A stretch of 64,000 bases of DNA from Histomonas meleagridis (taxonomy: Eukaryota; Parabasalia; Tritrichomonadida; Dientamoebidae): positions 186,001-250,000 of the forward strand of contig WSYJ01000134.1 in NCBI GenBank assembly GCA_020186115.1, given 5' to 3'. The translations under genes were made by a program, and so were the position numbers. The first letter of the stretch is position 1, and each line of letters opens with the position of its first letter. Of this stretch, positions 7,643 to 57,949 are shown in pieces. The notes under the pieces are model-generated. The model did no database searches. It was given only the letters and a program-made list of their open reading frames with translations, and was not told where the DNA came from.

Positions 7643-9115
7643 ATGAATGGTTTAATGTTTGTTCTATGTCTTTTCAATATCTTAGGATATTGCAAACAAA
7701 GACCGCAAATCTATGAGTTCAATCACAGTGCACTCATAAGTCTCTTGGACAAAATCCACAATCACGATTATGATGAAATTGTATATAAAGAAGTTCAACA
7801 CATAGCCAATGATGATGACGAAGAAGAAGAAGAGTATGTGTATCATTATTATCAAATTGACGATGAATATCATGAACCAGAGAAAAACTTATTTAAAATA
7901 AAAAACCCAATTAAAAGCATTACATCAAGCATATCCCATGGACTAAAATCACTTGCTTCCACTGGTATCGCTACTATTAAATCAACAGGCAAGCAAATAG
8001 CACAAGGAGCAACTGGTACAATAAAATCAGTGACCGGTGTTGCGTCAATAAAAACAATTCTCTCTAAAGTAAAGCCAGGAGTTTCCAAATTTAAACCAAT
8101 TCTCTCTAAAGTAAAGTCAGGAGTTTCCAAATTTAAACCAATTCTCTCTAAAGTAAAGTCAGGAGTTACCAAATTTAAACCAATTCTCTCTAAAGTAAAG
8201 TCAGGAGTTACCAAATTTAAACCAATTCTCTCTAAAGTAAAGTCAGGAGTTACCAAATTTAAACCAATTCTCTCTAAAGTAAAGTCAGGAGTTACCAAAG
8301 TCAAATCAGCAGCCTCGAAAGTAGGCAAAGTAGCTGGCAAAGTCGTCACAAGCGCTGCGAAAACTGCTGCCAAGACAGCCTCCAAAGCAACAAAGCAAAC
8401 GATCAAGACAGTTAAGGAAACTGCCAAAGCCTCAGCCAAGACAACCACATCTGCTGCGAAAGCTGCGGTCCGTATCACGCAAGCTTCGGTGCAGATCGCC
8501 ACCAATCCTGGCAAAGCTGGACAGATCATCAAAAATGTCAGCAAGGAAGTCACCAAAGATCTTAAGGAGGCAGCCGAAGCGTACAAGCCTGTCATCAGGG
8601 ATGTCAAAGCATATGAATTGTATCAAGCAGGAATGGCAATCTACCAAGGAATCAAAGAGAAAGATTTCATATCAACACTTGGCAGCATTGCACAAGCTGT
8701 AGGTAGCTTTGGAGGACCAATTGGAGCGATTACAGATAAAGCACAACAACTTTATCAACAAGGCGAAATGATCTATAAGGGAATTAAGAATGGCGATTAC
8801 ACACAAGTCATTAGTGGTATTACATCGATTATCTCTATTGATGAAGTTAAGGAATTAATATCGAAGAGTGAATTACTTCAACAAGGATTAGAATATTATC
8901 AAAGAGGTTATGATATGTATAAGAAAGGTAAACAAGTAACAGATGCAATTAAGACAGGACACTTCGGTAAAGCGATTGAAAGACTTGCAGAGTTAGGCTT
9001 AGACGTTCGTAATAATTCATTGTATACAAAAGCAGAAGAATTATTTGATAAGGCTTGGAAATATATTATCAAGGAGAAACATTATACAAACAAGGAAAGG
9101 AGAAACTTCAATTAG
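7643..9115 (+). CDS. Secreted lysine-rich tandem-repeat protein
   Basis: 490 residues to the first stop. From ATG 7643 (MNGLMFVLCLFNILGYC) the first 17 residues form a signal peptide; an upstream TTG extension is rejected. An acidic stretch (DDDEEEEEYVYHYY) is followed by a lysine-rich region containing five near-identical 14-residue repeats plus a divergent sixth (core ILSKVKSGVTKF; nt 8054-8305, 42-bp unit, about residues 138-221). Then come Ala/Thr/Lys-rich amphipathic helices (AAKTAAKTASKATKQ) and a C-terminal region with paired YQ-G-I/K motifs (AIYQGIKEKDF, MIYKGIKNGDY, DMYKKGKQVTD). No family is recognised; a surface-associated or cell-binding role is only a guess. The original gene seems to have continued to 9370. 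Confidence 0.75.
   Translation: MNGLMFVLCLFNILGYCKQRPQIYEFNHSALISLLDKIHNHDYDEIVYKEVQHIANDDDEEEEEYVYHYYQIDDEYHEPEKNLFKIKNPIKSITSSISHGLKSLASTGIATIKSTGKQIAQGATGTIKSVTGVASIKTILSKVKPGVSKFKPILSKVKSGVSKFKPILSKVKSGVTKFKPILSKVKSGVTKFKPILSKVKSGVTKFKPILSKVKSGVTKVKSAASKVGKVAGKVVTSAAKTAAKTASKATKQTIKTVKETAKASAKTTTSAAKAAVRITQASVQIATNPGKAGQIIKNVSKEVTKDLKEAAEAYKPVIRDVKAYELYQAGMAIYQGIKEKDFISTLGSIAQAVGSFGGPIGAITDKAQQLYQQGEMIYKGIKNGDYTQVISGITSIISIDEVKELISKSELLQQGLEYYQRGYDMYKKGKQVTDAIKTGHFGKAIERLAELGLDVRNNSLYTKAEELFDKAWKYIIKEKHYTNKERRNFN
8054..8305 (+). repeat. 42-bp in-frame tandem repeat, about 6 units
   Basis: Units start at 8054, 8096, 8138, 8180, 8222 and 8264. Each encodes x-I-L-S-K-V-K-S-G-V-[TS]-K-[FV]-K. 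Units 2-5 are almost identical at DNA level, indicating recent expansion. Confidence 0.95.
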
Positions 9116-14913: not shown

Positions 14914-16690
14914 TTATTTTTTTATAATTTTGATTGCCACCAATAATCTAACTATTTCTGTGTGGCCATATTGTGATGTTTTATTAATTGCTGTTTGAAA
15001 TATTTTGATCAAAAAGTAATTTAACTGTTTCTGTGTGATGATTCTCAGTTGCTATCATAAGTGCTGTCCGAAGTAATTTAAATAATTTCCAAATATTATT
15101 TTGAAATATCAAATTATAAAAATAAATATTAATTAAAACAAATAAATACCTTTAGCATTAATATCAATTCCTTCTTGTTCAAGAAGTAATATAACTATCT
15201 CTATATAACCATTTTCAGATGCAAATATAAGTGTTGTCCGAAGTAATTTAAATAATTTCTAAATATTATTTTGAAATTCTAAATTATTAAAATAAATTAT
15301 AAATAAAACAAATAAATATCTTTAGCATTAATATCAATTCCTTTTTGTTCAAGAAGTAATTTAACTATTTCTGTATGACCATTTAAAGATGCCCAAATAA
15401 GTGCTGTTCTAAATAATTTAAATAATTTCCAAGTATAAAATGTGTATTTCAAAACAATGGAATCAACTTCATTTTTAGTGTTGATATCATTTATTTTTTG
15501 TTCTAAAATATATTTAACAAGTTCAATGTTTCCCGACTTTACTGAGTAAACTAAAATATCTTTCGGAATTTGACATAATGCTCGAAAATGTTTGATAAGA
15601 ATTATATTTCCTTCATTTGCTGCTTCATTTATCATATCATCATTTATTTTCATACCTTCTTGAAGCAAATAAGAAAAAATTTCATAATTACCAGATAAAA
15701 TACATTTTTTACCTAATTGTTTTAATGTTTTAATTTCAGCGATTTTATTTTCATAAAGATAACTGAAAATTTCATATCGATGATATCCAAATGCAATTTC
15801 ATATGCAATTTCAAAAGATGAATGATTTTGTTCACATAAATGATTAATTTCTTCATTTCCACCTGCAATTGCATATTTACCTGTGATTTCTACTTTTGCA
15901 CTGTTCATAAGTAAATATTTAAAACATTTAACAGATCCAAAAAATGCTGCATAATCAATTAATGTAACATTTTCTTGATTAATAAATGAACATCTTTCAT
16001 AAAGTGATGGCATAATATATTGATTAAAATCAAAATTTGTTTGTGATGATATTTGAAATCATTTTGTGATGATATTTCTTGAAGTTTTTCGATTTCATCT
16101 TTTCGAATTATTTGCGCAATTGCATTTGGATTGTTTCCTTCTCTAATTAATTTTTTGTGAATCTCAAAATTATTCTTCGATAGTCCTTCATAATTCTCGA
16201 AGATATCGATAATCTCTTTAGTTAAATAATATTTTTTTTCTATCATCTTCTTTCATATAATATACAAAATATGGAGTACAAATATTAGGAAAAATATTCG
16301 GATTACACAAATTATGCTCAATCATATCGTTGATTATATGTTTTGCTTCTTTTGATACAAGGGATGAAATATACTCAATAAAAATTTTTATAATTTGTGA
16401 ACTTTCATTCATTTCTGCTTCTTTTGATTGAATTCAAACTCCAAATATTATAAATAGATATAAAATTTATTACCTCGAAAAATAAATGTTGAATAAACAA
16501 TATGGCAAATGAAAAAATTTATCATACAAGGCTTAAATGTATCAAATAATTGTATTGTCTGATGAACAGATGAGTCGAGATTTTCTTCCTTTAAATGAAA
16601 AACAATTTGTTGGAGAGAATTCAATGATTCTATGAATGGTGACTGATTGGTGATGACAGATTCACTGCTGCAAGCGACACATTCATTCAT
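14914..16690 (-). pseudogene. Ankyrin locus A: broken DUF3447-type head plus 170-bp ankyrin modules
   Basis: Starts at ATG 16688-16690. The head is spread over several frames: 16690-16448, 16412-16218, 16246-15959, then 16013-15297. At least four frameshifts are visible; one coincides with an imperfect short tandem duplication of TTTGTGATGATATTT at about 16040-16075. The last frame has typical head sequence (LIDYAAFFGSVKCFKYLLMN, GKYAIAGGNEEI) and runs through an in-frame 63-nt spacer into the first repeated module (TALIWASLNGHTEIVKLLL, start 15407). Modules follow at 15237 and 15067 (170-bp steps), then a fused terminal module (SQYGHTEIVRLLV) ends in TAA at 14914-14916. The head is clearly decayed. 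The modules follow the same plan as in loci B and D. Confidence 0.8.
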
Positions 16691-29276: not shown

Positions 29277-31259
29277 TATATTTTGAATTTCCAAATCATT
29301 AAAATAAATTTCGAATAAAACAAATAAATATCTTTAGCGTTAATATCAATTCCTTCTTGTTCGAGAAGTAATTTAACTATTTCTGTATGGCCATTTTCAG
29401 ATGCTATCATTAGTGCTGTATTAAATAATTTAAATAATTTCCAAATATTATTTTGAAATATCAAATTATTAAAATAAATATTAAATAAAACAAATAAATA
29501 GTTTTAGCGTTAATATCAATTCCTTCTTGTTCAAGAAGCAATTTAACTATTTCTGTATAACCTTCATCAGATGCTCTAATAAGTGCTGTTCTAAATAATT
29601 TAAATAATTTCCAAATATTATTTTGAATTTCCAAATTATTAAAACAAATGTTAAATAAAACAAATAAATAGTTTTAGCGTTAATATCAATTCCTTCTTGT
29701 TCAAGAAGTAATTTAACAATTTCTGTATGGCCATTCTCAGATGCTATCATAAGTGCTGTATTAAATAATTTAAATAATTTCCAAATATTATTTTGGAATA
29801 GAAATTTTGAATAAAATAAATAAATATCTTTAGCGTTAATATCAATTCCATCTTGTTCAAGAAGTAATTTAACTATTTCTGTATAACCATTTCTAGATGC
29901 ATGTATAAGTGCTGTCCAAAATATTATAAATAATTTCCAAATATTATTTTGAAATATGAAATTATTAAAATAAATAATATTTTTAGCATTAATATCAATT
30001 CCTTCTTGTTCGAGAAGTAATTTAACTATTTCTGTATAACCATTTGCAGATGCTTCCATAAGTGCTGTCCATAATATTTTAAATAATTTCCAAATATTAT
30101 TTTGAAATATAAAATTATTAAAACAAATATTAAATAAAACAAATAAATAGTTTTAGCATTGATGTCAATTCCTACTTGTTCGAGAAGTAATTTAACTATT
30201 TCTGTATGACCATTTTCAGATGCAAAAATAAGTGCTGTCCATAATATTTTAAATAATTTCCAAATATTATTTTGAAATAAGAAATTATTATAACAAATAT
30301 TAAATAAAACAAGTAAATAGTTTTAGCATTGATGTCAATTCCTACTTGTTCAAGAAGTAATTTAACAATTTCTGTATGACCATTTGAAGATGCTCTCATA
30401 AGTGCTGTTTTAAATAATTTAAATAATTTCCAAATATTATTTTGAAATATAAAATTATTAAAATTAATATCAAATAAAACAAATAAATATTTTTAGCATT
30501 AACTTCAATTCCTTCTTGTTCAAGAAGTAATTTAACTATTTCTGTATGACCATTTGAAGATGCCAATATAAGTGCTGTATTAAATAATTTAAATAATTTC
30601 CAAATATTATTTTGAAATATAAAATTATTAAAAATTAATATCAAATAAAACAAATAAATATTTTTAGCATTAACTTCAATTCCTTCTTGTTCAAGAAGTA
30701 ATTTAACTATTTCTGTATGACCATTTGAAGATGCCAATATAAGTGCTGTATTAAATAATTTAAATAATTTCCAAATATTATTTTGAAATATAAAATTATT
30801 AAAATTAATATCAAATAAAACAAATAAATATTTTTAGCATTAACATCAATTCCTACTTGTTCAAAAAGTAATTTAACAATTTCTGTATGACCATTTGAAG
30901 ATGCCAATATAAGTGCTGTATTAAATAATTTAAATAATTTCCAAACATTTTTTTGGAATATTAAATTATTAAAATAAATTTCGAATAAAACAAATAAATA
31001 TCTTTAGTGTTAATATCAATTCCTTCTTGTTCGAGAAGTAATTTAACTATTTCTGTATGACCTTTTTCGGATGCCAATATAAGTTCTGTTTTAAATATTT
31101 TAAATAATTTCCAAATATTATTTTGAAATATCAAATTATTAAAATTAATATCAAATAAAACAAATAAATATTTTTAGCATTAACTTCAATTCCTTCTTGT
31201 TCAAGAAGTAATTTAACTATTTCTGTATGGCCATTTTCAGATGCTATCATAAGTGCTGT
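29277..31259 (-). repeat. Ankyrin locus B array: 12 modules of 90 nt separated by mostly 80-nt spacers
   Basis: Module starts (first base of the Thr codon, minus strand) are 31259, 31089, 30919, 30749, 30578, 30408, 30238, 30068, 29915, 29759, 29589 and 29419. Steps are 170, 170, 170, 171, 170, 170, 170, 153, 156, 170, 170. Every module is open and reads T-A-L-x-x-A-S-x-N-G-x-T-E-I-V-K-L-L-x-E-Q then x-G-I-x-[IV]-N-[AT]-K-[DNT]. Spacers are T-rich, and most leave the next module in another frame; the 63- and 66-nt spacers keep the frame. The modules are very similar to each other, so the array has expanded or been homogenised recently. Translation through the spacers would give hydrophobic sequence (IYLFYLILILIILYFKIIFG). 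Confidence 0.85.
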
Positions 31260-31300
31260 ATTAAATAATTTAAATAATTTCCAAATATTATTTTGAAATA

Positions 31301-32461
31301 TTATATTATTAATATCAATATTATATAAAATTTAGAAATATCTTTAGCATTAACATAAAATCCTTTTTGATTTAGAATGTATGTAACAAGTTCAATGTTT
31401 CCTGAAAATGAAGCAAAAACTAAAATATTTTCTGGAAGTTGATTATTTTTAAGGAAATATTTTACAAGAAAAATATTTCCGATTTTTGCTGCTTCATTAA
31501 TAATATTTTCATTAATTTTCATTCCTTCATTTTCTAAATATGCAAAAATTTCATAATTAAAATATGAAACACATATTACTCCTAATTCTTCTAATTTTTT
31601 AATTTTTTCTAATTTGTTTTCATAAATATACTTAAAGACATCATTTCGATGAAACTTGATTGCAGCTTCACATGCATTATCAAATGTTGAATGATTTTGT
31701 TCACATAAATGAATAATTTCTTCATTTCCACCTGCAACTGCATATTTACCTGCATTTTTTACTTTTGCGCCATTCATAAGTAAATATTTAAAACATTTAA
31801 CTGAAGAAAAAAATGCTGCATAATCAATTAATGTAATCCGAAATTGATTAATGAATGAACATCTTTCATAAATTGATTTTCGAATTATTTGATTAAAATC
31901 AAAATTTGTTTGTGTTGATATTTCTTGAAGTTTTTCTACTTCATCATTTAGAATTATTTTTGCGATTTCATTTGGATTGTGTCCTTCTTTAATTAATTGC
32001 TTATGGAGTACAAGATCATCTTCATCTGATATATCTTCATTAATATGAGCAAAAAATGGTTCGCGTATATTTTGGATGAATTTTGTTTCAAGCAAATTAT
32101 ACTCAATCATGTAATTAAGAAAATAAAATGACTCTTGTGTTTTTTTCTTAAGAAGAAATTGAGAAAATGTATTTATTATTTTTGTGTTGATTTTATTATT
32201 TTCTTCATATTTTTCAATCTCTTGTAATAATCTCAAATATATATCAAAATTATTACTATCAATTAGAAGAGATGTATATATCATTCGGGTTAGAATGATG
32301 TCATAAGACATTGGATATTTTTTACAAAACTTGCTGATAATAAAATTTGATGATTGAGCAAAATTATCTTTATTCAAACCAAAGATTATGTTTTCGAAAG
32401 TTGTAAATGTTTCCCATTCGTTTTGAAATTTCTGGTTTGTTGTTGTTTGCTTTTGGTGCAT
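31301..32461 (-). CDS. Ankyrin protein head (DUF3447-type), locus B
   Basis: 386 codons from ATG 32459-32461 (MHQKQTTTNQKF). The N-terminal helical half (WETFTTFENIIFGLNKDNF, LHKQLIKEGHNPNEIAKIIL) precedes the DUF3447-type ankyrin-like region: CSFINQFRITLIDYAAF, SVKCFKYLLMNGAKV, GKYAVAGGNEEIIHLCEQ. The last module reads SGNIELVTYILNQKGFYVNAKD and ends at 31340. The frame then runs into a spacer and stops. From that last Asp to the next module (31259) is exactly 80 nt, so the frame end at 31301 probably does not mark the protein end if the array is joined. The family is large in trichomonads; targets are unknown. No signal peptide. Confidence 0.8.
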   Translation of the reverse strand: MHQKQTTTNQKFQNEWETFTTFENIIFGLNKDNFAQSSNFIISKFCKKYPMSYDIILTRMIYTSLLIDSNNFDIYLRLLQEIEKYEENNKINTKIINTFSQFLLKKKTQESFYFLNYMIEYNLLETKFIQNIREPFFAHINEDISDEDDLVLHKQLIKEGHNPNEIAKIILNDEVEKLQEISTQTNFDFNQIIRKSIYERCSFINQFRITLIDYAAFFSSVKCFKYLLMNGAKVKNAGKYAVAGGNEEIIHLCEQNHSTFDNACEAAIKFHRNDVFKYIYENKLEKIKKLEELGVICVSYFNYEIFAYLENEGMKINENIINEAAKIGNIFLVKYFLKNNQLPENILVFASFSGNIELVTYILNQKGFYVNAKDISKFYIILILII

Positions 32462-39040: not shown

Positions 39041-41347
39041 ATGGTTTCAGGATTTCTTCTTTCTGTAGCGATATTTTATTGTAATGCTCTTTGCGATGAA
39101 ACACTAGAGATTATAAATAATAGTTACATTTCCAATGGTGAATATGAATCAAAAAAAGATACTGTAAAATATTTAATTATTGGAACCGGCGTCAAAACAA
39201 TAGGATCAAAAGCATTTTACAACTGGCCTAATTTAACTAAAGTTACAATTGGTGATTCAGTTGTTATGATTGAAGATCATGCATTTGCTTATTGTTATAA
39301 GCTAGAAATAGTAACATTTTCTGAAGGCAAAAGTTTAGAGCAAATCAAAGATTGTTGTTTTTATTACTGCAGATCTCTCACTGAATTTATTGTTCCTGAA
39401 AATGTCACACAGATTTATCTAAGCTCTTTTTCACAATGCTTTAGACTGAAAAACTTTGTTTTTAATCAAGCAGTTGAATCCATTGGGAGTGAATTTTTTG
39501 ATTCCTGTATATCATTAGTATCGGTAACGATTAATTGTAATTTAACCACAATTCCATTGAAAGCATTTTCTAACTGTTCATCGCTTACCGAAATAACTCT
39601 TCCAAACACCATTATAACCATCAAAGAAACTTCATTTCTTGATTGCATCTCCTTAAAATCAGTTAAACTCGGCGACAATGTCAATTCAATTGGAAAGAAA
39701 TCGTTTTGTAACTGCATAAGTTTAGTTCATATCAATTTTCCATCTTCGATTACCACAATTGAAGAATATTCATTTTATAATTGTATTTCATTAGAAGTTG
39801 TCAACATTGAAACAGATCATAAAGTAACAATTGGCACTTATTCATTTTCTTATTGCGAAAGTTTAATCACAGTTAAACTCAGTGATACATGTTCATTAAG
39901 TGAAAGTTTATTTTATAGGTGTACAAACTTAACTTCAATCACGATTCCGAATGTACAAAATATACCAAAAGAGACATTTCAATATTGTAAATCATTAACA
40001 ACAGTTTCTATCCCCGATACAGTTCACCAAATTAATGAATATGCATTTTCATATTGTAAATCATTAGCTAATGTAACATTTTCGGAATGTCTTGAAGTAA
40101 TATCGAGGTATTCATTTGAATATTGTGATTTCCATGAAATTACTTTACCTGATTCACTTATCACGATTCAACGTTATGGCTTTAATTTCTGTTCGTTTAA
40201 ATCTTTAATTATGAACAACTGTAACATCAGTAACATCGATGAATATTCATTTTATAATTGTGATGTAACCAATTTAACAATTGGGAAATGTTATGATTCT
40301 ATTAAAATAATTATTAAACAACTGAAATATTTGAGAAATGTCAAAATAATAAATGTGGATAAAATTGATGGGAATCAATTTAAATCAAATGATTACATAA
40401 GATCAATTGATATCCAATCAGTTACAAACATTTGTTATCAGGCATTTTATTATTGCATGTACTTAACAACAGTTAAATTTGGTAACAATATAACATTCAT
40501 TGGATCTTATGCATTTTATAAAACAAATATTAGTGAATTATATATACCACAATCAAATATAAATAATTTGACATTAGATGAAAATTCATTTTATGATTGT
40601 GATAACTTAAGAACAATATATTTACCAACAGTTATTACTATTAATAAATACGCATTTACTTATTGTGATAAATTAAATGATGTTTATCTTGGTGATAATT
40701 TAACATTCATTGGTCAAAATGCGTTTGGTGATTGTTTATCTCTTAAATCAATTACTATTCCTGATTCTGTTGAACATATCGGGAAATATTTGTTTATTAC
40801 TTGTACAGCGTTAGAAAATGTACAAATTAATGATAATAGCAAATTAACGGAATTGCCCAATTCGACATTTGATGGGTGCAAACGTTTATATACAATATCT
40901 ATACCAAAAAGTGTCACAAGCATCGGCTATTCAGCATTCGAAAAATGTTCGTCGTTAATTCGTGTGGAAATTGGTGAAAATGTTAAATATATTTATGACA
41001 TGGCATTTTATGACTGCATTTCATTGCATTGTATATATTATTATGGAACAAACGAGCCATACATTGATAGAAACGCGTTCGTAAACATTAAGACATCGAA
41101 AGTGTACGTGTCAACATATTACTTTGACTCAAAATTCGGTAAATTTGACGTAGAAACAAACGAAAGAGAATGTGTCGGATACATGCCATCGGATAACGCA
41201 GCAACAGTGGCGATAGTGACGGCATCGGTAATTTGCGTAATGTTTGTTGTAGTGTTGGCGATAGTGTTGTGCGATAGGAATATGAGGAACAGAATTTCAA
41301 ACGCGGCGAGTGACCGGGCGCTGTATGATAGTGTGTGTAAAAAGTGA
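39041..41347 (+). CDS. BspA-like leucine-rich repeat surface protein (type I membrane)
   Basis: 768 residues from ATG 39041. MVSGFLLSVAIFYCNALC is a signal peptide. It is followed by more than 20 TpLRR/LRR_5 repeats of about 23 residues (IG-x-x-A-F-x-x-C-x-x-L-x-x-V-x-[IF]-x-x), with Phe/Tyr/Cys consensus positions (SFYNCISLEVVNIETDH). A membrane-proximal region (about 670-715) precedes one transmembrane helix (IVTASVICVMFVVVLAIVL, about 721-743). The short basic cytoplasmic tail is CDRNMRNRISNAASDRAL. It is intact, unlike the copy at 23-25 kb. Such proteins form a very large trichomonad surface family implicated in host or microbe binding; the ligand is unknown. Codons are GC-richer in the last 150 residues. 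Confidence 0.95.
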   Translation: MVSGFLLSVAIFYCNALCDETLEIINNSYISNGEYESKKDTVKYLIIGTGVKTIGSKAFYNWPNLTKVTIGDSVVMIEDHAFAYCYKLEIVTFSEGKSLEQIKDCCFYYCRSLTEFIVPENVTQIYLSSFSQCFRLKNFVFNQAVESIGSEFFDSCISLVSVTINCNLTTIPLKAFSNCSSLTEITLPNTIITIKETSFLDCISLKSVKLGDNVNSIGKKSFCNCISLVHINFPSSITTIEEYSFYNCISLEVVNIETDHKVTIGTYSFSYCESLITVKLSDTCSLSESLFYRCTNLTSITIPNVQNIPKETFQYCKSLTTVSIPDTVHQINEYAFSYCKSLANVTFSECLEVISRYSFEYCDFHEITLPDSLITIQRYGFNFCSFKSLIMNNCNISNIDEYSFYNCDVTNLTIGKCYDSIKIIIKQLKYLRNVKIINVDKIDGNQFKSNDYIRSIDIQSVTNICYQAFYYCMYLTTVKFGNNITFIGSYAFYKTNISELYIPQSNINNLTLDENSFYDCDNLRTIYLPTVITINKYAFTYCDKLNDVYLGDNLTFIGQNAFGDCLSLKSITIPDSVEHIGKYLFITCTALENVQINDNSKLTELPNSTFDGCKRLYTISIPKSVTSIGYSAFEKCSSLIRVEIGENVKYIYDMAFYDCISLHCIYYYGTNEPYIDRNAFVNIKTSKVYVSTYYFDSKFGKFDVETNERECVGYMPSDNAATVAIVTASVICVMFVVVLAIVLCDRNMRNRISNAASDRALYDSVCKK

Positions 41348-54749: not shown

Positions 54750-54841
54750 AGCAAGAATTAATTTTTGTGTAAAAACAGAAAACATTTTGAGTGGTGTGTT
54801 CATTGAAAAAGTACTGCAACGTCTTTTCATTTTTTTGGAAA

Positions 54842-56104
54842 ATGGGACAAAACCAAAGTCAGGCTCCAGTCCAAAATAAAAAGCCTTCTTCGAAACAAAC
54901 GAAGGAAAGCACACCACGGAAAGATCCAGAAATGCGTTTAAGTGCAGAATATATCAAAAGTCTTCAAAATCTTGAACAACGAATTTTTGAATTAAATGAA
55001 GAAAATGTTGAACAAATTGCGGATGGTGTCATGGAATTATTTAGTGATAAGTTCCCATGTACATCCAATCTTATTGTTTGTAAATTAATATTTTCATCTT
55101 TTGTTACTCAAAAACTTGATTTTAATCTTTATTTCAGATTAATAAAAACAATTGATTCAAAAGAACAAGACATAATAAAAACGAATTATAAATTACTTGA
55201 TATATTTACATGGTATTTACTTCATTCTGAGACACAAGAATCTTATTATTTACTTGAAATGTTAATTGAACAACGATTACTTGATCCAAAATTTGTTAAG
55301 AATAAAAAGTCATTACATTTTGCACATTATAAAACGAGAGAAGAAATTAATATCTTAAAAGATAATGCACCATTTCATGAACAATTCTTTTCTGTTTATG
55401 ACGATCTTTCACATGATAATTGGAAAATGCATTTACAATTTATTCATGAAGGAACTAATCCATTAGAAATTGCTAAAATTATTCGTAAAGATGACGTCGC
55501 AAAACTCAAAGAAATGGCCGAATTTAACTTCGATCAAAATCAAATAATTGAACCTTCACTTTATGAAAGATGTTCTTTTATTAATAAAACATATGAAAAA
55601 ATAACATTAATGGATTACGCCGCATTTTTCGGCGCAATCGAATGTTTTAAATTTTTAATGGAATGTGATTGTAACTTAGAAAACTCAGCAAAATATGCTG
55701 TAGCTGGTGGACATCATGAAATTGTTCGACTTTGTGAAAAAGGTCATGCAACATTTAAAGATACTTATGAGACAGCAATTGAATTTCATCAAAATAATAT
55801 TTTTCATTATTTATATCAAAATCAAATTATTAAAGTTGGCGATTTAACTCAATTAGGAAAGAAATGTATTCAAAGCGGAAATTATACAATTTTGGAGTTT
55901 TTAATTCAAGAAGGAATGAAAGTTGATGATTCAATAATTGTTGAATTAATAAAAGCTGGAAATTTGTTCTTACTTGATCAAGGTCTTAGTTCAAAGCATT
56001 TCCCTAAAAATGCTATAGTTTTAGCAACAAAATCAGGAAATATTGAACTTGTTAAATATCTTATTGGGAAATATAGTTTTGATATCAATGAAACAGATAT
56101 TTAA
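54842..56104 (+). CDS. Ankyrin protein head (DUF3447-type), locus D, N-myristoylation motif
   Basis: 420 codons to the first stop. The frame runs upstream to a GTG, but ATG 54842 gives MGQNQSQAPVQ, a good N-myristoylation sequence (Gly2, Ser6). Helical N-terminal region (LQNLEQRIFELNEENVEQIA), then DUF3447-type repeats: CSFINKTYEKITLMDYAAFF, GAIECFKFLMECDCNLENSA, KYAVAGGHHEIVRLCEKGHA. The last head module reads SGNIELVKYLIGKYSFDINETD (ends 56098), then I and a stop. From the Asp the next module lies 81 nt away (56180), so this may be exon 1 of a longer gene running to 57949. Membrane attachment by myristate is inferred. Confidence 0.8.
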   Translation: MGQNQSQAPVQNKKPSSKQTKESTPRKDPEMRLSAEYIKSLQNLEQRIFELNEENVEQIADGVMELFSDKFPCTSNLIVCKLIFSSFVTQKLDFNLYFRLIKTIDSKEQDIIKTNYKLLDIFTWYLLHSETQESYYLLEMLIEQRLLDPKFVKNKKSLHFAHYKTREEINILKDNAPFHEQFFSVYDDLSHDNWKMHLQFIHEGTNPLEIAKIIRKDDVAKLKEMAEFNFDQNQIIEPSLYERCSFINKTYEKITLMDYAAFFGAIECFKFLMECDCNLENSAKYAVAGGHHEIVRLCEKGHATFKDTYETAIEFHQNNIFHYLYQNQIIKVGDLTQLGKKCIQSGNYTILEFLIQEGMKVDDSIIVELIKAGNLFLLDQGLSSKHFPKNAIVLATKSGNIELVKYLIGKYSFDINETDI

Positions 56105-57949
56105 TTTTTTTGATTTTATGTTTATTGATTTGTTTTAGTGTTTAAATATATTTTTTGGAATTTATTTAAATATTTTAAAACTGCACTTATTTATGCATCT
56201 GAAAATGATCTTTTCGAAATTGTCGAATTACTTTTAGAACAAAAAGAAATCAACATTAATGCAAAAAGTATTTCTATGGTTTTATTTAATGTTTATTTAA
56301 ACTTTTTTATGTTTTAATGAATTATTTGGAATTTATTTCTATTTAATGAATCATCAATTTATTTTGCAAGTGCAAATGGAAATATTGAAAACGTCGAAAT
56401 GTTACTTAAACAAAATGGTATTGACGTAAGTCAAAGTACTGTTTACTTTTTTTATCTAATATTCATTAAAATAATTTAATGTTTTAACGTAATTTTTGGT
56501 ATTTATTTAATTTGTTTTGGTCACCACTTATGAGGGCATCTGAAAATGGACATTATGATGCAGTTAAATTACTTCTTAAACAAGGTGATGTTGACTATAA
56601 TGCTATAAATATTTTTTTGTTCTATTTAATATTTATTTTAATATTTTAAAGTTCAAATTTTATATTTGGTATTTCTTTAAGTTATTTGAATCTGCACTTT
56701 TACTTGCATGTAAATTTGGATATAAAAAAATTGTTAAATTACTTCTTTCACAAAATGAAATTTATGTAAATCCACAAGATATTAATTTAGTATAATTGCT
56801 GTTTATCACAGTTTCATGATATTTCATTTTAGTATATGGAAATTATTTAAAAAATATATGACACCGCTTATGTATGCATCTCAATCAGGTTTCAAAAAGA
56901 TCGCCAATAAACTTCTTAAAAGAAAAGATATTGATATAAATGAATCAAATGTCTTTCTTTTTTATTTAAAGATTATTTTAATCACTTTATGTTTTAAACA
57001 AATATTTGGTATTTGTCACAATTTTTTGAAACAGCATTAATGTTAGCAGCATCATTTAATAGCGTTGAAATTGCTGGATCACTTCTTGAAAAAGATAACA
57101 TCGATTTCAATGCTAAAGATATTTTTTAAATAATTTTGATGTTCATATTTTTAAGTTGAAATTTCATAAATTCATTTGAAAATTATTTTTAATGTTTAGA
57201 ACAGCTCTTATTTGTGCAGCTCAATATGGGCATGCTGAGATTTTTAAACTACTTCTTCAACAAAATGGAATTGATATTAATGTTCAAAATATTATAAAAT
57301 TATATTTAAAATTTGATTTAAAGATTTCATGTTTTAAAATTCATTTTGGTAATTATATAAATTATTTTATACACCACTTATTTTAGCAGCTGCTGATAAT
57401 TATATTGATGTCATGGAATTACTTCTTCCGCAACATGGAATTGAAATAAATACTCAAAATGTTTAATATATTTATAAGAAATATGTTTTCTTAATTTTGG
57501 ATTTAATAATTTTATTTGGAACTTATTTTATATTTTTGAAACAGCTATAATATGTGCAACTAGAAATAATCGCGTTGATGCTGTTAGATTACTTCTTGAA
57601 CAAGAAGATATTGATTTTAATTCTAATGATATAATTTTAAGTTATTTAATGATGATTTTAATTATTTAGAATTTTTTGATTGAGTTTGGAATTTAATATA
57701 ATGTCATAATACCTCAATTTTAATTGCTGCTAAAAATAATTGTGAAGAAATAGTTAAATTACTTGTCCAGAAAAAAGGACTTGATATCACTGTGAAAAAT
57801 GTTCAAACATTTCATTCGACGTTTTTTATACTCATTTGAAATATATTAAGAAAATTTGGTGTTAATTTAAGAGTTTTAAAGTAGCAATGTCTTATGCAGT
57901 TGCAAATGAAAATGAAGAAATCATTGATTTACTCAAGGGAGTTGATTAA
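56105..57949 (+). repeat. Ankyrin locus D array: 11 divergent 90-nt modules with 80-nt spacers
   Basis: Modules start at 56180, 56351, 56521, 56691, 56861, 57031, 57201, 57371, 57541, 57711 and 57881. From 56351 on, every step is exactly 170 bp. Each module is open and ankyrin-like, for example TALIYASENDLFEIVELLLE (56180), SPLMRASENGHYDAVKLLLK (56521), TALICAAQYGHAEIFKLLLQ (57201) and TAIICATRNNRVDAVRLLLE (57541). The last ends SYAVANENEEIIDLLKGVD-stop at 57947-57949. Spacers are T-rich with stops, and they share T-GG at spacer positions 57-59, 22-24 nt before the next module (TGA in one). Sequences differ strongly between modules. Either an interrupted gene is rejoined by RNA-level or translational means, or this is a cassette store. 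Confidence 0.85.

Follow-up and report, generated by a model that had tools for sequence, protein, structure and literature searches.

In vertebrate ankyrin genes, each repeat is encoded by its own exon and the genes have grown by exon duplication, their introns being long, variable and of the GT-AG type. Short non-coding inserts between the codons of one protein are known from mitochondrial byps and from phage T4 gene 60, where bypassing relies on matched take-off and landing codons. The Trichomonas type A and B introns are short and T-rich, some of them lying within ankyrin genes; their ends are GT-AG, they begin with a GTATGT-like sequence, their branch site is fused to the 3' site, and a gene holds two of them at most (available part of PMC12316389). 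As for the nonconventional introns of euglenids and diplonemids, their ends are noncanonical and variable but pair with each other, and their removal is poorly understood (available parts of PMC6221363 and PMC12621601). Tunicate noncanonical introns, e.g. those of Fritillaria, are found genome-wide in animal genes (available part of PMC13326754). For a virulent Histomonas meleagridis, 573 introns, at most one per gene, were reported from genes called with AUGUSTUS trained on the transcriptome, and the word 'ankyrin' is absent from the main text (PMC8529796). A literature search, covering mainly papers outside subscription, returned no published report of introns in ankyrin arrays or of noncanonical introns in parabasalids; in Histomonas proteome papers, a single ankyrin-domain protein is named in one, the word being otherwise absent.

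The window analysed here is a stretch of 64,000 nt from H. meleagridis, a poultry parasite, located on contig C71 of the genome searched (43.28 Mb, 121 contigs). It carries ankyrin modules separated by spacers, a plan shared with the vertebrate one-exon-per-repeat genes, but the spacers are short, near-constant in length and not GT-AG. Like the Trichomonas introns they are short, T-rich and parabasalid, whereas they bear none of the type A/B marks and are many per gene. Their noncanonical, variable ends recall those of euglenids and diplonemids; in contrast to the latter, the two ends pair below the level of shuffled sequence and the 3' block is conserved. Unlike the tunicate introns, they were seen in one ankyrin family. 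An earlier note on this DNA had proposed an unrecognised excision or bypass process, or cassettes preserved by recombination. Of these branches, excision is the best supported, in the form of RNA splicing: judging from the coding contrast between modules and spacers, the spacers are probably introns removed from the pre-mRNA, the modules being thereby joined into a continuous ankyrin protein.

Organisation of the array

Array A, at 56099-57949 of the window on the forward strand, consists, after a DUF3447/ankyrin head, of ten full ankyrin modules and a shorter C-terminal cap module (Table 1). The ten modules are each 93 nt long and of the form x-T-A-L...D. The earlier note had counted eleven modules, the last cut short, with starts 170 bp apart nine times in a row and fixed spacers of 80 nt. 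Ten are indeed full, whereas the last (KVAMSYAVANENEEIIDLLKGVD) is a shorter module with its own stop at 57947-57949; the nine 170-bp steps hold and are preceded by one of 171 bp; and the spacers, taken between the D codon and the Thr/Ser codon, are 80 nt long in nine of 11 cases but 81 nt before modules 1 and 2, hence two of the 11 lengths are multiples of three. Both spacer stops it had cited (56102-56104 and 57464-57466) are TAA, and the head ORF, in register, terminates as ...N-E-T-D-I-stop with the stop at 56104. The first spacer codon, said to be always Ile or Val, is so in 11/11 spacers of array A but in 108/121 units of the wider sample.

Table 1. Ankyrin loci of the window. Spacers are measured from the D codon to the x codon, the first codon after the spacer.
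Feature	Position	Strand	Remarks
Head exon, DUF3447 + ankyrin	54791..56098	+	ORF and Pfam; ends in D codon; left edge is the first GTG of the open frame, start putative
Spacer 1	56099..56176	+	78 nt
Module 1	56177..56269	+	31 codons (x codon to D-position codon)
Spacer 2	56270..56347	+	78 nt
Module 2	56348..56440	+	
Spacer 3	56441..56517	+	77 nt
Module 3	56518..56610	+	
Spacer 4	56611..56687	+	77 nt
Module 4	56688..56780	+	
Spacer 5	56781..56857	+	77 nt
Module 5	56858..56950	+	
Spacer 6	56951..57027	+	77 nt
Module 6	57028..57120	+	
Spacer 7	57121..57197	+	77 nt; sole array A copy with A as second G of TTTGG
Module 7	57198..57290	+	
Spacer 8	57291..57367	+	77 nt
Module 8	57368..57460	+	
Spacer 9	57461..57537	+	77 nt
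Module 9	57538..57630	+	
Spacer 10	57631..57707	+	77 nt
Module 10	57708..57800	+	
Spacer 11	57801..57877	+	77 nt
C-terminal cap module	57878..57949	+	23 codons + stop TAA
Second gene	29279..32461	-	Head (about 31340-32461) and near-identical modules; spacers 60, 63, 77, 78 nt; no cap module found
Third gene	14950..16013	-	Head and short, decayed array

The head of array A gave matches over cut-off to PF11929 (DUF3447) and PF12796 (Ank_2), as did the heads of the two other window genes, so that all three belong to DUF3447-headed ankyrin proteins. In the second window array (29279-31369, reverse strand), both modules and spacers are homogenised, and the 60- and 63-nt spacers are open in frame; being homogenised and without a cap, this array suggests either recent expansion or decay.

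Spacer lengths and signals

Spacer lengths were counted in the 124 pairs that passed a filter among the 190 consecutive pairs of 25 arrays, and amount to 37, 60 (6), 63 (2), 70, 76, 77 (103), 78 (2), 80 (5) and 97 (3) nt. Anchor-based location, which gives 37 nt in 23 of 95 spacers, mostly through the anchor matching inside spacers, was not used for lengths. From 37 to 97 nt, all three residues modulo 3 are represented, with more than one residue within the same array in 11 of the 25 arrays. A variant array (L055:200-1400, forward strand) has spacers made of repeated 20-nt units, where lengths of 37, 77 and 97 nt stand beside nearly identical modules. In general, the spacers have an internal period of 20 nt (self-match of 0.537 at lag 20 and 0.503 at lag 13, vs. 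0.425 by composition).

TTTGG, ending 18 nt before the next exon, is the one sharp signal of the spacers. In 94 of 121 units, exactly 18 nt separate its end from the x codon; this holds for 16 of the 23 units with a spacer length other than 77 nt, and the exact string is absent in 18/121. Since its position is fixed despite the varied spacer length, length changes happen upstream of it. In the right-aligned spacers of array A, its two Gs are kept in 11/11 and 10/11 copies, G making up 9% of the spacer. Concerning the other end, the first two spacer bases are AT in 103, AA in 6, GT in 6 and others in 6 of the 121 units, i.e. noncanonical and variable.

An RNA structure bringing the spacer ends together was considered and discarded, the ends pairing less than in shuffled sequence: 2.15 expected pairs vs. 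3.48 in shuffles, with a mean MFE z of -0.32 (40 of 102 units sampled). Eight single spacers folded weakly, with z from -2.10 to 0.20.

Limits of the coding segments

For the neutral expectation, array A was simulated at its observed divergence with two base compositions, 600 runs each. Its ten modules have no stop, against a neutral mean of 10.4 or 12.0 and a minimum of 3, which bears out the earlier statement that such open modules are unlikely without selection. Stops were also counted in the window and L039-L061, in segments anchored on the 23-nt spacer block alone with at most two mismatches. This gave 187 places, 176 of them distinct, of which the 127 beginning like xTAL were kept and 49 dropped, a filter that ignores the x codon. 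In these 127 segments, the x codon has 0 stops vs. 14.2 expected from independent columns and module codons 0-20 have 2 vs. about 70, while the remaining 19 module stops all lie in codons 21-30, the stretch in which cap modules terminate. Coding constraint sets in abruptly past the spacer. Within the spacer, the three frames have 113, 522 and 62 stops for 135, 495 and 91.7 expected, respectively. The shortfall in the third frame is genuine but incomplete; no stop interrupts this frame in the consensus spacer, and related copies lack independence.

Nearer the boundaries, the second codon after D has 5 stops vs. 7.8 expected and the spacer codon two before the x codon has 6 vs. 7.5, near the neutral rate; both counts come from a set found by a stop-free module search, which biases stop counts inside modules, a bias of which the 127-segment set is free. 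From these counts, the exons would end within about five nucleotides on either side. Of the roughly 9 nt of coding sequence previously proposed at the spacer end, the codon right before the Thr/Ser codon is coding, but the one two further upstream is near-neutral.

Located without any frame requirement in 124 of 182 anchored segments, the modules measure 93 nt in 119 cases, 90 in two, and 87, 84 and 119 in one each: a multiple of three in 123/124. A join leaving 6 nt of the spacer (D-I-F-x-T-A-L, 33 residues) is stop-free in 121/121 units, a weak result, as ATT and TTT seldom turn to stops, whereas for a 9-nt leftover (34 residues) the best split fails in 4/121. Two natural spacer-free junctions keep 9 nt, in L059 (N-N-R-G-K-C-A-L) and in P0006 (N-V-M-F-E-S-A-L). 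The repeat may therefore be of 33 or 34 residues: the 33 put forward in the earlier note fits every unit without a stop, yet both natural junctions are one residue longer.

Should the mRNA keep its spacers, the ribosome would have to bypass them or shift frame. The openness of the consensus spacer in the downstream frame (53 of 94 spacers, with 98 of 215 units kept under a badly indexed score) agrees with this, but divergent spacers have stops in that same frame, and one fixed shift cannot serve lengths of differing residue modulo 3 within one array. Matched take-off and landing codons are not general either: among 25 offset combinations, one reached 68/121 units (consensus AAA), the next 15 and the rest at most 9. 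The bypass branch of the earlier note is thus not upheld, and ribosomal bypassing or shifting appears very improbable. A fixed frameshift or read-through was rejected as such, since spacer lengths differ modulo 3 within arrays, yet some 60- and 63-nt copies are readable through.

Selection on modules and spacers

In array A, modules and spacers diverge from their consensus at 27.5 and 28.0% of the sites, respectively, and pairs are near saturation (dS 0.64, dN 0.60, spacer 0.63; for core codons, dN 0.46 and dS 0.62). In the 70 nearest pairs of sampled units with at least 80% identity, surface and core codons, chosen beforehand by ankyrin numbering, were compared. Surface codons have a pN/pS of 1.63 (1.13-2.86) and change at 2.7 times the spacer rate; core codons have a pN/pS of 0.78 (0.58-1.15) and change at 0.73 times that rate; for all module codons, pN/pS is 1.08 (0.91-1.31). 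With the surface faster and the core slower than the spacers, a plain dN/dS over the whole module would show nothing. The modules behave as protein, and the spacers do not.

Array ends and spacer-free relatives

Alternatively, only the head might be translated, the array being an untranslated satellite-like tail, or a cassette store, kept alike by duplication and gene conversion. Many arrays are homogenised, modules and spacers alike, as would be expected from such a tail, and their ends are mixed. Among the 25 arrays of at least four modules, read by hand, 12 close with a cap module that has a stop of its own 21-29 codons after the module start, where helix 2 ends; two run off the edge of the sampled stretch; and 11, the second window array included, lack a clear cap, finishing in a full module, in a broken end or in a long open tail. 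Caps speak against an untranslated tail, and the cap-less or broken-looking ends for it. The cap stop reads TAAA in four of 12, too few for a poly(A) argument. In L046:3000-4100 (forward strand), the array continues past its last module for at least 80 open codons, a tail that contains a small internal repeat.

Spacer-free ankyrin genes do exist in the genome, as contiguous frames that are up to 1,578 residues long and match the module consensus at up to 56% identity. A contiguous row at 65% belongs to the mosaic gene of L059 (593-890), which has one spacer-free junction among spaced junctions. The exact consensus-module junction pattern has 31 matches in the genome, with 24 nt between the fixed parts in 30 and 18 nt in one; all are read as falling inside spacers, and none leaves less than 18 nt between a module end and the next module. 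Nor was a clean spacer-free junction of this module type found among the protein-search matches listed. A cassette store would thus have no visible recipient of the consensus type, which, with the 12 arrays having their own cap, counts against the recombination branch of the earlier note.

On the other side, no spliced Histomonas product is recognisable among the best 120 of 4,837 protein-collection matches (at most 61% identity), and all eleven related head proteins (P0001-P0011, from ENA contigs) have their stop no more than about 40 residues from the same D position, some possibly being contig-end cuts; five stop directly after the residue following D, and P0006 after one extra module. P0001 shares just 48-55% identity with each of the 101 matches listed in the Histomonas genome and is therefore from another species. 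P0001 and P0009 may have a spacer too: back-translating their tails by hand, rather than reading the sequence, leads after about 83 nt to an x-T-[SP]-L in another frame. Stops missing from modules and present in spacers, together with surface codons faster and core codons slower than spacers, remain at odds with an untranslated array, which we regard as unlikely.

Comparison with ordinary introns

GT-AG introns of the ordinary kind, if their boundaries differ from the assumed ones, would be compatible with the encoded spliceosome: Prp8 is present (PF10596 match in an open frame of 2,333 residues), as are two U2 snRNA genes, at C40:1173955-1174137 and C120:2033147-2033329, while a U12 snRNA search gave 0 matches, control genomes likewise giving none. 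However, scanning from -12 to +24 nt around the module ends yields a GT-AG join that keeps the frame and is free of stops in just one of the 11 units of array A and 13 of 124 sampled units, which makes such introns highly improbable, still more so than ribosomal bypassing. With AT/GT donors and AC/AG acceptors, some in-frame option exists in 122/124 units and in 9/11 of array A. A join between the initial AT of the spacer and the AC in the Thr codon was rejected, for that offset alone, as it is out of frame and would remove a proven coding codon.

Neither known intron pattern is enriched in the genome: the trichomonad 3' motif ACTAACACACAG, absent from spacer ends by inspection, has 3 matches vs. 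2 in the control, and GTATGT..CTAAC..CAG has 15 vs. 17. A few matches look like real introns all the same; two related stretches, GTATGT...TCTAACACAG, at C83:141372-141422 and C68:295682-295732, are candidate ordinary trichomonad introns.

At the DNA level, spacers could be cut out in some cells or stages, like the internal eliminated sequences of ciliates, or could be an assembly artefact. Their short length, AT-richness and length steps near 20 nt are in keeping with this, but the assembly of cultured cells retains the spacers, and we know of no nuclear dualism in parabasalids. Against an artefact, heads of related proteins on independent ENA contigs break off at the same place, and the assembly was built from ONT and Illumina reads (available part of PMC8529796). 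Of all the readings, a DNA-level origin is the least probable. Because the translational, DNA-level and silent-array alternatives fit worse, removal is placed, by inference, in RNA.

Distribution in the genome

Searched as a pattern of 35 places with at most three mismatches, the 3' end of the spacer plus the Thr codon after it has 6,212 genome-wide matches (3,162 + 3,050) vs. 2 (0 + 2) for the reversed control. The spacer pattern gave 0 matches in viral_contigs and 0 in genome_contigs. In the genome, the exact 24-nt spacer end has 19 occurrences in which the next codon but one does not have C as its second base. Given the 6,212 vs. 2 matches and just 19 ends without a Thr/Ser-type codon, the spacer belongs to the ankyrin module and spreads with it; a mobile element was rejected on the same 19 occurrences. 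In 264 kb of sampled DNA, most stretches of which were picked for containing the motif, 117 of the 173 gaps below 400 bp are exactly 170 bp. By the 6,212 matches, the pattern noticed in array A is genome-wide.

Proposed mechanism and significance

In the splicing reading, each locus would be one gene: the head exon, of the DUF3447/ankyrin type, would be followed by exons of one module each, and the stop would lie in a final cap exon. The spacers, T-rich and about 77 nt long, would be taken out of the pre-mRNA as introns, and the modules would join as an ankyrin solenoid of 33- or 34-residue repeats. Removal may be carried out by the spliceosome, since Prp8 and U2 snRNA are encoded, or by another activity, guided by the spacer 3' block, which is the best lead on how the ends are chosen. 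Arrays would grow by duplication of exon and intron as one 170-bp unit, whence the fixed 170-bp spacing. The chances are about even that these spacers form a new class of parabasalid nuclear introns that number in the thousands, vary little in length, all sit at the same site in a single ankyrin family, lack GT-AG ends, canonical branch site and end pairing, and are recognised via the TTTGG block, which ends 18 nt before the next exon.

If the spacers are introns, their number would be about ten times that of the annotated introns (6,212 matches vs. 573), and the largest Histomonas ankyrin genes are likely annotated as short heads. Parabasalids would then be added to the small number of groups in which non-GT-AG introns abound (Euglenozoa, tunicates and, reportedly, the dinoflagellate Amoebophrya). 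The uniform exon + intron unit would make end recognition directly testable, and the parasite would possess a large, diversifying ankyrin repertoire.

Other features of the window

The window gave 0 matches in the Rfam search and 0 tRNAs with ARAGORN. A BspA-type leucine-rich repeat protein (PF13306) is encoded at 39041-41347 on the forward strand, and a tandem array with a 42-bp unit in 5.9 copies lies at 8051-8299.
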